Under the pieces are notes generated by a model. It was not told the origin of the DNA, did no database searches, and worked only from the letters and a program-made list of their open reading frames with translations. Below, piece by piece: positions 21,768 to 27,940 of a stretch of DNA of 64,000 nucleotides. Origin of the DNA: Embleya scabrispora DSM 41855 (GTDB taxonomy: Bacteria > Actinomycetota > Actinomycetes > Streptomycetales > Streptomycetaceae); the NCBI RefSeq assembly GCF_000372745.1, contig NZ_KB889741.1, forward strand, positions 1 through 64,000, read 5' to 3'. Position 1 is the stretch's first letter; the number at the start of each line of letters is the position of its first letter. The position numbers and the translations under genes were made by a program.

Positions 21768-22036
21768 GGTGCCACCCTCGATCGTTGCCTACCGTGTCAC
21801 GCCGCAGCCTTGCACACGCATCCGACAACGCCCATCGCCGACGCGTGATCGCGTGCCGTGGTGAACACCCGCCGTCGTAGCGTGGAAGTCCCGCTGCTCG
21901 GACCGACGGCGGTATGGCCGGGTGCGGCGCGCCGCCGCTTCGCGAGGGGGTCGTCCGTTCACCGGATACGAACACCGGATACGAAAAAGGGCGAGGGATC
22001 CGACTCTCCCCGCCATGAACAACTTATAGCGCGTCG

Positions 22037-22057
22037 GGGGGCTTGCGGCAAGGCCCC
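22037..22057 (+). promoter_or_regulatory. Rifamycin-associated element (RAE)-like inverted repeat
   Basis: A 21-bp inverted repeat with inner arms CTTGC and GCAAG around a central G, outer arms GGGG and CCCC, and one G/G mismatch per arm. It closely resembles, from memory, the RAE found upstream of rifamycin-inactivating genes (rph, iri, rgt, arr) and helR in actinomycetes. It lies 59 bp before the start of the glycosyltransferase remnant, the expected RAE position. The rest of the 348-bp gap (21768-22115) holds no gene. Confidence 0.75.
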
Positions 22058-22115
22058 GGTGGTACCGCAGAATCGGCGGCCGAACGTGGAAACCGGCGGA
22101 ACCTGGAGTCGCGAA

Positions 22116-22867
22116 GTGCGAGTGTTGTCGATGACGTGGGGATCGCGCGGAGATGCCGAGCCGTTGGCGGTGCCGGCGGTGAAGTCGCGTGACCTCGGCG
22201 CGCAGGTGCGGGTGTGCGCGCCGCCGGACGAGGCGTTCGCGGCCCTGTCGGCCCTGGCGGCGCGTGTCGGTGTGCGGGCCGCGCCGCTCGGCCCGACGGT
22301 GCGCTCGGTGGTCGCCGGCACGAAGGCACCGACGGCGCGTGACGCCTTCCGGCTCGCCCCCGAGCCGGTCGCCGCGCGGTTCGACACACTCGCCGCGGCG
22401 GCCGAGGGAAGTGACGCGCTGCCGGCAGCCGGCCTGATGCCGGCCGGCGCACGGGACGTGGTGATCGACCTGGCCCCGATCGACGAGCGGGTCGACTGCT
22501 TCGCCGTCGGCGAGGCCGGCCAACAGGCCCGGCAGGCACTGGTTCGCCGGGTGGCCGCCGTCGTGCACCACGGCGGCGCGGGCGCCACGACGACGGCCGC
22601 CCGGGCCGGCGCGCCTCGGGTGGTGGTCCCGCGGATCGCGGACCAGCCGTACCGGGCCGGCCGGCCGCCCTGGGCATCGGCGCGGCACACGAGGGCCCGG
22701 CTCCGACCTTCGAGTCCCTGTCCGCCGCGCTCGCGACGGCCTTGACCCCCCGGACCCGCGCACGCGCGACCGCCGTGGCCGGCACGATCCGCACCGACGG
22801 CGCGACGGTGGCCGCGCGGCTGCCGCCCGACGCGGCCGGCCGGGACAGGTCGCCGGGGTCCGTGTGA
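22116..22867 (+). pseudogene. rgt: Broken rifampin-type glycosyltransferase (UGT family)
   Basis: Starts at GTG 22116 (GGAG seven bases upstream) with the GT-B N-terminus [17 protein letters not shown]. It reads normally to about residue 118, then jumps in frame to the C-terminal donor-binding region [11 protein letters not shown] and [11 protein letters not shown]. Roughly 150-180 residues, including the domain linker, are missing compared with the usual length of about 400. After R-A-G-R (about 22664) the frame shifts by one base, and the conserved end A-L-G-I-G-A-A-H continues in another frame to TGA 22867. The gene is therefore inactive. Its RAE promoter and the helR gene behind it suggest it was rgt. 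Confidence 0.8.
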
Positions 22868-23061
22868 CCCACGCGAGATCGTCGAGCCGGAACCAGGAAC
22901 ACGAGAACCCACACACCCCGGCGGCCGGGACGGACGACGGCCACGGGGCCACTTCGGGCGCGGTTTTGCCGCCCGTCCCCGCCACCGGGTTCGTCACGAC
23001 GATCCGAAACCCCCTGCCACGCGCCACGGTCGCACCGCGACCCCAGATCGGAGCCGATGCC

Positions 23062-25215
23062 GTGAACCCCCTGACCACCAGCAGCGCGTTCGACCTTCCC
23101 GACCACCTCTCGGCCAAGGCCGATCCGGCGCTGACGGCCGACGACGAGCAACACTTCGCGGCCATCGCGCAGTGCCTGGAGCAGTCGATCGCCGACCTGT
23201 CCGACCGCCTCGACGCCGAGCGCAAGGCGCCCGGCGGCAAGGGTCGGCAGGCGATGGACCGGGACATCGAGATCCACCGGCTGACCACTCGCCTGCGGGC
23301 GCTGCGTCGCTTCGGCCTGGACCTGTGCCTTGGACACATGGTCGGCGCGGACGACCCCGAGCCCGTGTACGTCGGACGTCTCGGCCTCACCGACAGCGCG
23401 GGGCGTCGGTTGCTGGTCGACTGGCGCACCCCCGCGGCCGAGCCCTTCTTCGGAGCCACCCACGGCAACCCGATGGGCCTGGCAAGCCGGCGCAGGTACC
23501 GCTGGACCCGCGGCCGGATCAGCGACTACTGGGACGAGGTGTTCACCCCGGATGGGTTCGTCGGGCATGCCGCCCTCGACGACCAGTCCGCCTTCATCGC
23601 CGGCCTGGGCGGCAATCGCTCGCCCCGGATGCGCGACGTGCTCGGTACCATCCAGGCCGACCAGGATGCCATCATCCGCGCCGGATCCCGCGGTGCTCTC
23701 GTCGTCGACGGCGGTCCCGGTACGGGGAAGACCGTCGTCGCCCTGCACCGCTCCGCCTACCTTCTCTACTCCGACCCCCGCCTGGGTCACCGCCGCGGCG
23801 GTGTGCTGTTCGTCGGCCCGCACCAGCCCTACCTGAACTATGTCGCCGACGTCCTTCCCAGCCTCGGCGAGGAGGGCGTGCAGACCTGCACCCTGCGGGA
23901 TCTCGTCGCCGAGGGAGCCGGGGCGGGGGTCGAGGCCGACCCGGGGGTCGCCCTCCTGAAGTCGTCCGCGGACCTGGTGCGGGCGATCGAGAAGGCCGTG
24001 CGGTTCTACGAGGAGCCGCCCACCAAGGGAATGACGATCACGACCCACTGGTCCGACATCCGGCTGACCGTCCGCGATTGGGCCGAGGCGTTCGAGGCGG
24101 CGGAACCCGGTATGGCGCACAACGAGGCACGCGAGTCGATCTGGGAGGAACTGCTCACGATCCTGGTGGACAAGCACGACGACGACGAGGTTTCGCCCGA
24201 CCTGCTCCGCAGGTCCCTGGCGCGGAACGGTGAACTGCTCACGGCCTTCAACCGGGCATGGCCACTGCTCGAAGCGACCGACATCGTCGGAGACCTGTGG
24301 ACGGTACCCGCCTACCTGCGGATGTGTGCCCCCTGGCTCGACCCCGACGACGTGCGGAAGTTGCAGCGCGGGAACGCCCATGCCTGGACGGCGTCCGACC
24401 TGCCGTTCCTGGACGCGGCACGACTGCGGCTCGGCGACCCGGAGGCGGCGCGCCGCAAGCGCCGACGCAAGGCCGCCGTCGCCGCCGAGCGCGAGCACAT
24501 GTCCCACGTCGTCGACGCCCTGCTGGAGGCCGACGACGACGGTGAGGGTGTGGTGACGATGCTGCGCGGTGAGGACCTACGGGCATCCCTGGTCGACGAG
24601 TCCGCGCAGCCCGGCCTCGAACCGGATCTGCTCGCCGGTCCGTTCGCGCACGTCGTCGTGGACGAGGCCCAGGAACTGACCGACGCCGAATGGCAGATGT
24701 TGCTGCTGCGGTGCCCGTCCCGGAGCTTCACCATCGTCGGGGACCGCGCCCAGGCCCGGCACGGGTTCACCGAGTCGTGGCAGGAACGGCTCGAGCGGAT
24801 CGGGCTCGACCGGATCAACCTGGCCTCCCTGAGCATCAACTACCGGACGCCGGAGGAAATCATGACGCAGGCCGAGCCGGTCATCCGGGCCGCGCTCCCG
24901 GACGCCAACGTGCCGACCTCCATCCGCAGCAGCGGCGTCCCCGTCGTACACGGATCCGTCTCGGAACTGGACTCGATCCTGGACACCTGGCTCGCCACCC
25001 ATGCCGAGGGGATCGCCTGCGTCATCGGCGATCCCGCCTTCCGGTCGACGTCCCGCGTGCGGTCGCTGACCCCGGGGTTGTCCAAGGGGCTGGAGTTCGA
25101 CCTGGTCGTCCTCATCGATCCGGAGGCGTTCGGCACGGGCATCGAAGGGGCGGTCGACCGCTATGTCGCGATGACCCGAGCCACCCGAGAGCTGGTCGTA
25201 CTCACGAGTTCCTGA
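23062..25215 (+). CDS. helR: HelR, RNA polymerase-recycling helicase-like rifamycin protection protein
   Basis: 717 residues from GTG 23062 (GGAG eight bases upstream; N-terminus V-N-P-L-T-T-S-S-A-F-D-L-P as in relatives). It is a HelD/UvrD-like superfamily 1 protein: an N-terminal coiled-coil arm at about 20-95, Walker A G-G-P-G-T-G-K-T near 225, V-V-D-E-A-Q-E-L Walker B near 532, G-D-R-A-Q-A-R near 560, and helicase motif V/VI region S-K-G-L-E-F-D-L-V-V-L near 675. HelR binds RNA polymerase, dislodges stalled enzyme and displaces rifamycins. An in-frame GTG at 22864 overlaps the glycosyltransferase stop (GTGA) and may be the true coupled start, adding 66 less conserved residues. Confidence 0.85.
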   Translation: MNPLTTSSAFDLPDHLSAKADPALTADDEQHFAAIAQCLEQSIADLSDRLDAERKAPGGKGRQAMDRDIEIHRLTTRLRALRRFGLDLCLGHMVGADDPEPVYVGRLGLTDSAGRRLLVDWRTPAAEPFFGATHGNPMGLASRRRYRWTRGRISDYWDEVFTPDGFVGHAALDDQSAFIAGLGGNRSPRMRDVLGTIQADQDAIIRAGSRGALVVDGGPGTGKTVVALHRSAYLLYSDPRLGHRRGGVLFVGPHQPYLNYVADVLPSLGEEGVQTCTLRDLVAEGAGAGVEADPGVALLKSSADLVRAIEKAVRFYEEPPTKGMTITTHWSDIRLTVRDWAEAFEAAEPGMAHNEARESIWEELLTILVDKHDDDEVSPDLLRRSLARNGELLTAFNRAWPLLEATDIVGDLWTVPAYLRMCAPWLDPDDVRKLQRGNAHAWTASDLPFLDAARLRLGDPEAARRKRRRKAAVAAEREHMSHVVDALLEADDDGEGVVTMLRGEDLRASLVDESAQPGLEPDLLAGPFAHVVVDEAQELTDAEWQMLLLRCPSRSFTIVGDRAQARHGFTESWQERLERIGLDRINLASLSINYRTPEEIMTQAEPVIRAALPDANVPTSIRSSGVPVVHGSVSELDSILDTWLATHAEGIACVIGDPAFRSTSRVRSLTPGLSKGLEFDLVVLIDPEAFGTGIEGAVDRYVAMTRATRELVVLTSS

Positions 25216-25341: not shown

Positions 25342-26712
25342 TCAGCGGCGGCGTACCGCGAGGGTCATGGCCGCGCACAGTGCGGCCGGCAGGAGCAGGG
25401 CCCAGACCAGGTCGTGGGGGTCGGCTGCGCCGTCGACGCTGACGAAGGCGCCCATCGCGGCGACGCCGAGCGTCGCGCCGATCTGGCGGACGGCGTTGAG
25501 GAGGCCGCCGGCGGCGCCGGCCGTGCCCTCGGGGGCCGTGGTGATGACCGTGGTGACCAGCGCCGGGAGCGCGAAGGAGACGCCGAAGCCGGTGCACAGC
25601 AGGCCGATGGCCAGGACCGGATAGGCCGAGCCGGTCAGCACGGCCACGGCGAACACGACGCTGCCCGCGGTCAACAGGCCCAATCCGGCGAGCATCGGCC
25701 CACGCGCCCCCGACCTGGCCACGATTCGGCCGGTCAGCAGCGGATTGACCGCGAACGGCAGGGTCATCGGCAGGAACGCGACACCCGTCTCCAACGGCGA
25801 CATGTGCAGGCTCTGCCGAAACAACAACGGGAGGACGAACAGCAGTCCGGTCATCGCGAAGTTGACCGCCGCGCCCGCGAGCAACGCGGACACCGTGCCA
25901 CGCGAGCGCAGGATCGCCGGGGCCAGTACCGGGTTGGCGCTGCGCCGCTCGGACCCGGCGAACAGCAGCCCGGCGAGCACCGCGCCCGCGCCCGAGCCCG
26001 CCGCGTGCGTCGCGCTGCCGGAGCCCGCCGCGATCAGGGCATCGGTGGCCGGCCCCAGCGTCACGCACGCGGCGAGCTGGGAGGTCCAGTCGATCGGTCG
26101 TACCCCCTTCGGGCAGCGCACCGTTCGCCCGGCCGTCAGGGCCAACGTGAGTGCGGCGAGCGGCACGTTGATCAGGAAGATGGCCCGCCGGCCGAACGCG
26201 TCGACCAGCAGTCCGCCGACGATGGGTCCCACCGCGAGCGCGGCGCCGCTGAGCGCGGCCCAGACCGCGACCGCCCTGGCCCGTTCGGCCGGCACCGGAT
26301 ACAGCGTGGTGACCGTGGCCATCGACGCGGGTACGCACGCGGCGGCGGCCACGCCGAGCAGTGCGCGCAGGGCCACCAGGGTCCACAGGTCCGGCGCCCA
26401 GGCGCTGAGCAGCGAGCCGAGGCCGAACGCGACGATGCCCACCCGGAATGCCCGATGCGCACCGAACCGGTCGGACATCGCGCCCGCCGTCAACAGCAGC
26501 GCACCGAATACGACGGTGTACCCGGACACCACCCATTGCAGACCCGCCACCGAACTGCCCAGTGACCGGGCCGGATCCGGCTCGGCCACCGACAGCACGG
26601 TCAGGTCGAGCAGCACCATGAAATAGCCCAGCGCGATGCCCAGGAGGGCGACCGTACGAGAGCGTGCCGTCGGCGCGGGCCGGGTGGAAACGGGTGAATC
26701 GACGACAGTCAT
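25342..26712 (-). CDS. MFS transporter, DHA2 (EmrB/QacA-like)
   Basis: 456 residues with about fourteen predicted helices, as in the DHA2 drug:proton antiporters. The N-terminal helix reads A-L-L-G-I-A-L-G-Y-F-M-V-L-L-D-L-T-V-L-S-V-A (DHA2 motif D1 variant L-D-x-T-V), followed by W-V-V-S-G-Y-T-V-V-F-G-A-L-L-L-T-A-G near 61. The open frame continues upstream, but ATG 26712 has GGAGAA eight bases upstream and starts the protein just before the first helix. It is divergent from the LysR gene at 27005 across 292 bp, the usual layout of a LysR-controlled exporter. Confidence 0.87.
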   Translation of the reverse strand: MTVVDSPVSTRPAPTARSRTVALLGIALGYFMVLLDLTVLSVAEPDPARSLGSSVAGLQWVVSGYTVVFGALLLTAGAMSDRFGAHRAFRVGIVAFGLGSLLSAWAPDLWTLVALRALLGVAAAACVPASMATVTTLYPVPAERARAVAVWAALSGAALAVGPIVGGLLVDAFGRRAIFLINVPLAALTLALTAGRTVRCPKGVRPIDWTSQLAACVTLGPATDALIAAGSGSATHAAGSGAGAVLAGLLFAGSERRSANPVLAPAILRSRGTVSALLAGAAVNFAMTGLLFVLPLLFRQSLHMSPLETGVAFLPMTLPFAVNPLLTGRIVARSGARGPMLAGLGLLTAGSVVFAVAVLTGSAYPVLAIGLLCTGFGVSFALPALVTTVITTAPEGTAGAAGGLLNAVRQIGATLGVAAMGAFVSVDGAADPHDLVWALLLPAALCAAMTLAVRRR

Positions 26713-26965
26713 CGAGAGTTCTCCAAGGATGGGTGGGGTGAGCACGGCGAAGGCGCGACAGGGCGATCGCGCGGTATCGCGATTGCGCGGTACGGCGAAG
26801 GTGCGGCACTGCGATCGCGCGGGAGTCCGGCCCGTCGGCAGGTTTACCGACCGGGCTCGATACCGGGGCATACCGCCGAGACCGGCATCGGCAGCGGGAA
26901 CGGATCGAGGACAACCACTGTGCGGCCGCGCTGGATTCGGCTCGACCGGCTGTGCCGCATGCCTC

Positions 26966-26982
26966 GTTCGGAATATCCGAAC
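26966..26982. promoter_or_regulatory. Probable LysR operator
   Basis: GTTCGGA-ATA-TCCGAAC, a perfect 7-bp inverted repeat with a 3-bp AT spacer, ends 22 bp before the LysR start codon. LysR regulators bind dyads with T-N11-A-like symmetry near their own start, repressing themselves and activating the divergent gene. The rest of 26713-26965 holds GCGATCGCGCGG-type repeats and no gene. Confidence 0.6.
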
Positions 26983-27004
26983 GCTGTGCCGAGGTTGCCG
27001 GACC

Positions 27005-27940
27005 ATGGAATTCCGCCGGCTCCGCACGTTCGAGACGGTCATCCGGACCGGGACCGTCACCGCCGCCGCCAACGCGCTGGGCATCGCGCCCTCGTCGGTC
27101 TCCGAACAGATCCGGGTGCTGGAGAAGTCGGTCGGCGTCGCGTTGTTCGACCGAGGTCCCAGGGGAATGACGCTCACCTCGGCCGGCGAGCGCATGCGCG
27201 ACTGGGCCCACCGCCTGCTCGACCAGGCCGATCAGGCCCGCCGCGAGGTCGCCGAGGCCGCGCCGCTGCTGCGACTGGGTGCGTTGGAGAGCATCGCCGC
27301 GACGCACGTGCCACCGGTACTGGCCCGGCTCGGTGCGCGCCGACCCGACCTGCGGGTCCAGGTCGGTTCGAACGGTACGCGCGATGACCTGTTGGCCGCC
27401 GTGGCCGCCGGACGCCTCGATGCGGCGCTGGTCCTGGACACCGGTACCTGGCTCGGCGAGCTGGGCTTCGAACCGCCGCCGGCCGCGCTGGCGTTCGTCG
27501 ACTTGGAGCCGATCGGGCTGGCCCTGGTGGCCGCGCCGGGCCACCCGCTCGGCGGCCGCTCCGAGATCACCGGCGACGATCTGCGCGGTCACCGGCTCCT
27601 GGTCAACGTGGCGGCTTGCTCGTTCCGCCTGGCCGGTGATCGACTCCTGGGCACGGAGGTGGAACAGGTCCGGGTCGGCGGCGTCGCGGTCATCCGGGCG
27701 TGGACCGAACAGGGCCTGGGCGTCGCCCTGTTGCCGGCCTTCGCGGTCGCCGACCAACTCGCCTCCGGCAAGCTGATCCGACTCGCCCTGGACGCCCCCG
27801 ATCTGACTCTGCGTCTGGTCTGGCGTCCGGACCGGGAATCCCTCCCGGGCCTGCGCGAAGTCCTCTACGCGGCGGCCGCCCCGACACCCGGCACCACGGG
27901 ACCGGTCACCCCGCTCGCGAGCGCGCGCACGGGGCCGTGA
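27005..27940 (+). CDS. LysR family transcriptional regulator
   Basis: 311 residues. N-terminal winged helix M-E-F-R-R-L-R-T-F-E-T-V-I-R-T-G-T-V-T-A-A-A-N-A-L-G-I-A with the recognition helix S-S-V-S-E-Q-I-R-V-L-E near 34-44, and a periplasmic-binding-like effector domain from about 90 to 295 (L-R-L-G-A-L-E-S-I-A-A near 81; G-L-G-V-A-L-L-P near 238). The C-terminal 20 residues are low complexity. Probably controls the divergent DHA2 exporter. Confidence 0.9.
   Translation: MEFRRLRTFETVIRTGTVTAAANALGIAPSSVSEQIRVLEKSVGVALFDRGPRGMTLTSAGERMRDWAHRLLDQADQARREVAEAAPLLRLGALESIAATHVPPVLARLGARRPDLRVQVGSNGTRDDLLAAVAAGRLDAALVLDTGTWLGELGFEPPPAALAFVDLEPIGLALVAAPGHPLGGRSEITGDDLRGHRLLVNVAACSFRLAGDRLLGTEVEQVRVGGVAVIRAWTEQGLGVALLPAFAVADQLASGKLIRLALDAPDLTLRLVWRPDRESLPGLREVLYAAAAPTPGTTGPVTPLASARTGP

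Follow-up and report, generated by a model that had tools for sequence, protein, structure and literature searches.

The window analysed here is a stretch of 64,000 nucleotides from Embleya scabrispora DSM 41855 (contig NZ_KB889741.1, positions 1 to 64,000), and the rgt-helR locus within it runs on the forward strand. The locus is marked by an RAE, a 19-bp inverted repeat at 22038-22056 with the sequence GGGGCTTGCGGCAAGGCCC, of the kind described in the available text of PMC10719064. A TATAGC box (22025-22030), the probable -10 element of the upstream promoter, stands 13 nt before the RAE, and further upstream lies a second inverted repeat (21990-22014; arms 21990-21998 and 22006-22014) that is imperfect in the window. 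Behind the RAE follow three remnants of rgt: an N-terminal part (22116-22469, about positions 2-115 of the Rgt profile), a part of the C-terminal domain (22470-22664, profile 282-343; Pfam EryCIII-like_C, PF06722, E 4e-10) and a C-terminal tail in another frame (22658-22867, profile 343-408) that ends at the old stop codon. An intergenic leader (22868-23061) resembling that of intact operons then leads to helR (23062-25215), which is intact at 717 aa and encodes an RNA polymerase recycling motor and rifamycin target-protection protein. Two further ORFs, both named by eye, lie beyond it: a transporter-like ORF (25342-27195) convergent to helR, and a LysR-like regulator (26636-27940).

The earlier note had described the first gene as a UGT whose two ends match rifampin glycosyltransferases, which has lost about 150-180 internal residues and changes frame near 22664, and each part of that description was borne out. 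ORF 22116-22742 matched the NCBIfam Rgt model NF000354 with E 9e-60 (202.9 bits against a cut-off of 800; best stretch, profile 1-114), and the out-of-frame tail at 22661-22864 matched profile 347-408 of the same model with E 7e-18. The next-best family for the UGT, TIGR04516, reached E 2.8e-7, so that no non-rifamycin family describes it better. A profile search of the strain's own genome returned the gene in three pieces (2-115, 282-343 and 343-408), with about 166 of the 411 profile positions (~40%) absent and the frame change near 22660. By these alignments the window's UGT, which scores below the whole-protein cut-off, is a relic of the Rgt family and not a working member. Its start codon has kept its place 59 nt behind the RAE, a distance of 58-60 nt in 16 of 18 full-length RAE-rgt-helR loci. 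Compared with full-length genes, the three pieces have mean pN/pS values of 0.90, 0.72 and 0.91, against 0.72, 0.30 and 0.59 for pairs of full-length rgt genes over the same codons, which indicates relaxed constraint on the window's pieces.

What had been called an RAE-like repeat is a real RAE, since relatives carry the same type of element ahead of helR, rph, rox and rgt; the available text of PMC10719064 likewise places it upstream of rifamycin-protection genes, rgt, rox and helR among them. A 20-base form, GGGGCTTGCGGCAAGGCCCC, recurs without change in 27 of 81 loci of the helR-locus set, which comprises best matches and not all helR loci. A degenerate RAE pattern occurs three times in the 11.4-Mb genome of the strain, and the reversed pattern, our control, does not occur there. 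Through this element the window's locus would presumably be induced by rifamycin. As stated in the available text of PMC10719064 and PMC12802891, the RAE overlaps a second, downstream promoter, and its regulator is unknown. Of 88 upstream regions compared, a set that omits two divergent RAE-rgt regions of the window's genus, 87 have a TATAGC-type box exactly 13 nt ahead of the RAE; inspection by eye of the compared regions revealed no clear -35 element before it. In the two omitted regions (L134 and L138, from genomes G001 and G002) the RAE lacks the upstream box, and their Rgt proteins form a divergent subfamily (412 and 395 bits against the cut-off of 800). The arms of the upstream inverted repeat are conserved as a pair: arms of one locus match each other at a mean of 7.90 of 9 positions in the 88 regions, against 5.41 after shuffling and 7.05 when paired with arms of other loci, and own arms pair better than foreign ones in 74 of the 88 loci and worse in 13. 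The element before the RAE is thus a fixed module, consisting of a GGCAAGGAG/CTCCTTGCC-type inverted repeat with variable spacer and covarying arms, then the TATAGC box, and its inverted repeat is a possible site for a rifamycin-responsive regulator, or possibly a hairpin. In the strain itself the arms match at 6 of 9 positions at the window's helR locus, 9 at rph and 8 at rox (shuffled mean 5.4), and with such weak arms helR may be less inducible in this genome.

The claim of an intact helR directly behind the UGT also stood: the window's HelR scored 1299.7 bits against NF041254 (cut-off 750) over profile positions 1-706. We place its start at 23062, where alignments with relatives begin and which a Shine-Dalgarno-like GGAG (23050-23053, by eye) precedes. 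An alternative start at 22864, to which the frame remains open, was rejected because the upstream frames of relatives disagree there. A small hairpin found by eye (GGTCGC-ACC-GCGACC, 23028-23042) lies about 20 nt before the start and is common to several relatives; counted over rgt-helR leaders, 6-bp hairpin stems occur in 34 of 64 loci, a modest excess over the shuffled mean of 22.25 (maximum 28 in 20 rounds). The sequences GGPGTGKT, DEAQ, GDRAQ, NYRTP, KGLEFD and TRAT, which we take to be the ATPase and helicase motifs of a class II HelD, are all present in the window's protein. According to the available text of PMC10719064, the tip of the primary-channel loop of M. smegmatis HelD is acidic (E484/D485); the window's HelR carries an acidic DDDGEG in the loop-tip region, a correspondence by region and not residue by residue. 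This motif is exact in 42 and closely similar in 69 of 84 compared HelR proteins. The window's HelR very probably continues to work by displacing rifamycin from RNA polymerase. Additional HelD-like genes lie on contigs C103, C2, C181, C90 and C131 of the same genome.

The genome to which the window belongs (G000; 11.39 Mb, a draft in 190 contigs) carries its three RAEs at the window's helR locus, on contig C109 before rph and on contig C125 before rox. Both of the latter genes are intact, Rph scoring 1655 bits against NF041857 (cut-off 999) and Rox 846.3 bits against NF033145 (cut-off 800). A search of this genome found neither an intact rgt nor a member of the Arr family. An Rgt-like match on contig C67 was discarded, having neither an RAE core (one mismatch allowed) nor the HHGGAG motif. 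A single rpoB was found, whose rifamycin-binding region is of the sensitive type, and target protection would therefore be useful to the strain.

We then compare 84 helR loci in all, namely the best 80 of 575 confirmed HelR matches, the window itself and three genomes of its genus. Full-length rgt, defined as an ORF of 380-450 aa between RAE and helR, is present in 18 loci (17 from Streptomyces, one from Kribbella), an rgt relic in 31, and neither was found in 35. The RAE-rgt-helR operon that the earlier note had proposed as ancestral is accordingly found complete, and an origin of the window's locus from such an operon, with rgt decayed and helR kept, is well supported by these comparisons. 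The expectation that related genomes would hold an intact rgt held only in part: the 18 operons were found further afield, and none of the three other genomes of the window's genus keeps an intact gene at this locus, so that the ancestor is inferred from Streptomyces and Kribbella. Relics were called as tblastn matches with the 18 full-length Rgt proteins at E <= 1e-2; 31 of the 66 loci without full-length rgt have one (30 at 1e-3). For these 66 loci the minus strand gave no relic, and each of ten dinucleotide shuffles gave none or one. Four of the 31 are less regular: L019 and L035 have no RAE in reach, and L020 (E about 0.005) and L006 (13 residues) are weak or odd matches. In L019, mechanical translation also gives helR an ORF of 855 aa; the nearest 2.2 kb hold no RAE, and the C-terminal third of rgt lies upstream.

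The relics vary in length, reach to about 100 codons and mostly represent the 5' end, beginning at rgt codon 1 to 5; internal or C-terminal pieces occur in L002, L012, L023, L024, L032 and L073, and the end of the rgt-helR intergenic stretch recurs in many relic loci. Within the window's genus, tblastn aligned 98 reference residues in G002 and 43 in G001 (the 287 for the window is too high, since alignments overrun the deletion edges), and it detected no rgt relic at the helR locus of G003. On a HelR tree the intact-rgt state changes at least 12 times, with 8 changes forced by starred branches; this is a quick tree in which 32 of 81 inner branches are open. Near sisters on it differ, L050 having full-length rgt and L035, which is cut by a contig end, a relic. 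The tree itself is silent on gain versus loss, and the relics point to loss. Since 31 of the 66 loci keep relics and the three other genomes of the genus are without rgt here, the gene has decayed repeatedly, and its loss in the window is nothing special: 66 of the 84 helR loci have no full-length rgt in front. Extra RAEs lie near some helR genes (in L040 a divergent RAE-rgt adjoins RAE-helR, in L027 a second RAE-rgt lies some 4 kb away from the first RAE, and L077 has a further RAE), which suggests material for recombination between RAE units.

Relics of rgt are also found before rph and rox. A search of 296 genomes of the class for an RAE followed by an rgt start, a set selected for that start, gave 22 places in 20 genomes: 7 with full-length rgt, and an rgt-like start followed by helR in 9 (including the window), by rph in 5 and by rox in 1. 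Among the 15 places without full-length rgt, 6 also match Rgt by tblastn. An unselected census searched 61 genomes of the family for the RAE alone; 52 had a match, and the places come to about 100 by hand sum. The 75 examined stand before helR (20), rph (16), rox (15), rgt (12, including the window) or other genes (12), and relics at E <= 1e-3 occur four times in each of the first three groups (helR, 4 of 20; rph, 4 of 16; rox, 4 of 15). Neither the minus strand nor any of ten shuffles of these 51 regions produced one. The window's genus contributes two of the helR relics and one each of those before rph and rox. The window's own genome has a relic before all three RAE genes; that before rox is the weakest (E 2.9e-4) and is broken in frame. 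Some RAEs precede other genes: in L187, L188, L189 and L195 another HelD/HelR clade whose best match is NF041258 and not NF041254 (ORFs cut by the locus end), and in L223, L227 and L229 monooxygenases that match rifampin monooxygenase below cut-off and are possibly divergent Rox.

Among 30 further rgt loci, the best of more than 100 listed and hence near L050, an RAE lies 75-81 bp upstream in 28, and behind rgt stands helR in 5, rph or rox in none, and none of the three in 25; most rgt genes of this best-30 set stand alone as regards helR, rph and rox. Another 15 loci, several with less than 300 nt to inspect, likewise had only helR or none of the three behind rgt. No intact RAE-rgt-rph or RAE-rgt-rox arrangement was found among the rgt loci and RAE places examined.

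Several other readings of the window's locus must be weighed. If the frame change were a sequencing error, as a draft assembly of 190 contigs might allow, rgt would be broken all the same, because about 40% of the protein is already gone through the internal deletion; we regard an error as improbable in any case. That the shortened UGT is a working small enzyme in a new role, with a 209-aa product, is hardly credible: the deletion does join the N- and C-terminal parts in frame and HHGGAG is still present, but about 40% of the profile is absent, the frame is lost before the C-terminal tail, and pN/pS is raised. The earlier note took the locus to mean that drug inactivation had been lost and target protection kept, a natural test of whether HelR alone gives useful rifamycin tolerance. 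A strain living on HelR alone would agree with the broken rgt and with the failure to find another intact rgt or an Arr in its genome, but we reject it as very improbable, because the strain keeps rph and rox intact under separate RAEs, and these should still inactivate the drug; the proposed test falls away for the same reason. One decayed resistance gene tells little about whole-cell resistance.

Two alternatives concern the segment behind the RAE more generally. The 5' remnants of rgt might be retained as open reading frames in the leader, coupling translation to helR while the peptide is free to drift. We counted frames in 64 RAE-helR loci without full-length rgt, choosing the frame by likeness to rgt. 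An rgt-type start is present in 33, and in 22 of these the frame stops at the helR start (-20 to +5), against 3 and 10 for the shifted frames; counting also the frames that run into helR gives 26, against 18 and 19. These loci are related and the counts not independent, however, and when eight similar Streptomyces loci are set aside the contrast falls to 14 of 25 against 3 and 8 for stops at the helR start, and to 18 of 25 against 11 and 17 for reaching helR. The window's frame ends 316 nt short of helR, and 31 of the 64 loci have no rgt-type start at all. The eight Streptomyces leaders have pN/pS of 0.65-1.34, whereas the first 45 codons of full-length rgt average 0.41; these leaders drift as peptides (pN/pS about 1), and a leader peptide kept for its sequence is not supported. 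We take the frame counts as a possible lead for translational coupling, not as proof, and think coupling unlikely. As an observation apart, L009 and L025, the latter keeping little rgt-like sequence, have helR in the same frame as the start codon at the rgt position, and L151 has rph in that frame; the N-termini would then be fused. Alternatively, the segment could belong to the regulatory element itself, its rgt-like starts being conserved for DNA or RNA reasons. The nearly fixed distance from RAE to start codon and the beginning of most relics at the first codons of rgt fit this idea, but relics about 100 codons deep, the internal and C-terminal pieces, and the 31 loci lacking an rgt-type start make it rather doubtful.

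The reading we prefer, with a probability of roughly 85%, is that the window holds an RAE-type rifamycin-resistance locus in which rgt is a pseudogene and helR is intact, one case of a repeated loss of the promoter-proximal rgt. A large internal deletion, together with a frame change, has made a pseudogene of rgt, the first gene of the operon; the gene may have been dispensable because rph and rox, elsewhere under their own RAEs, still inactivate the drug. Repeated deletions in RAE-rgt-helR operons have spared the RAE in front and helR behind, leaving fossils of rgt of varied length, mostly its 5' end. The locus thus suggests that target protection and other inactivating enzymes make rgt dispensable again and again.

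A further step can be put forward only tentatively: the actinomycete rifamycin-resistance regulon could have begun with RAE-rgt, a founding unit that passed RAE control on to helR, rph and rox. Each of these genes would have landed on such a unit or behind it, rgt would have eroded afterwards, and the fossils of its first codons between RAE and helR, rph or rox would be scars, as seen for all three genes in the window's genome. Two routes are conceivable: a gene settles behind rgt, which is then deleted, or the RAE and rgt start are copied in front of it. For helR, the full-length operons and the recurring end of the rgt-helR intergenic stretch lend good support to settlement followed by deletion as the probable route. 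For rph and rox, where the loci examined hold no intact operon with rgt, the founder step is suggested just as tentatively. In the literature searched, whose coverage did not extend to the primary RAE and HelR papers, we found no account of rgt relics before helR, rph or rox, and the available text of PMC10719064, PMC12802891 and PMC8655204 offers no explanation of how unrelated genes came to share the RAE. Fossils of rgt between RAE and other genes offer a concrete and testable route, that of promoter inheritance through a sacrificial first gene.

Set beside known systems, the window agrees with RAE-controlled rgt of the NF000354 type in its RAE, in the spacing from RAE to start codon and in N- and C-terminal protein sequence, and differs in that its copy is a pseudogene, deleted internally and changed in frame. 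The Rph and Rox genes of the same genome share with the window's helR the RAE module and the rgt 5' relics; they encode different enzymes and are intact. Further parallels are the RAE-helR arrangements of Streptomyces venezuelae (SVEN_6029) and Mycobacteroides abscessus (MAB_3189c), as presented in the available text of PMC8655204 and PMC10719064. An RAE lies upstream in both, as it does in the window, and all three proteins are class II HelD, the window's putatively sharing the acidic tip of the primary-channel loop; unlike either of them, the window has about 1 kb, mostly dead rgt, between RAE and helR.
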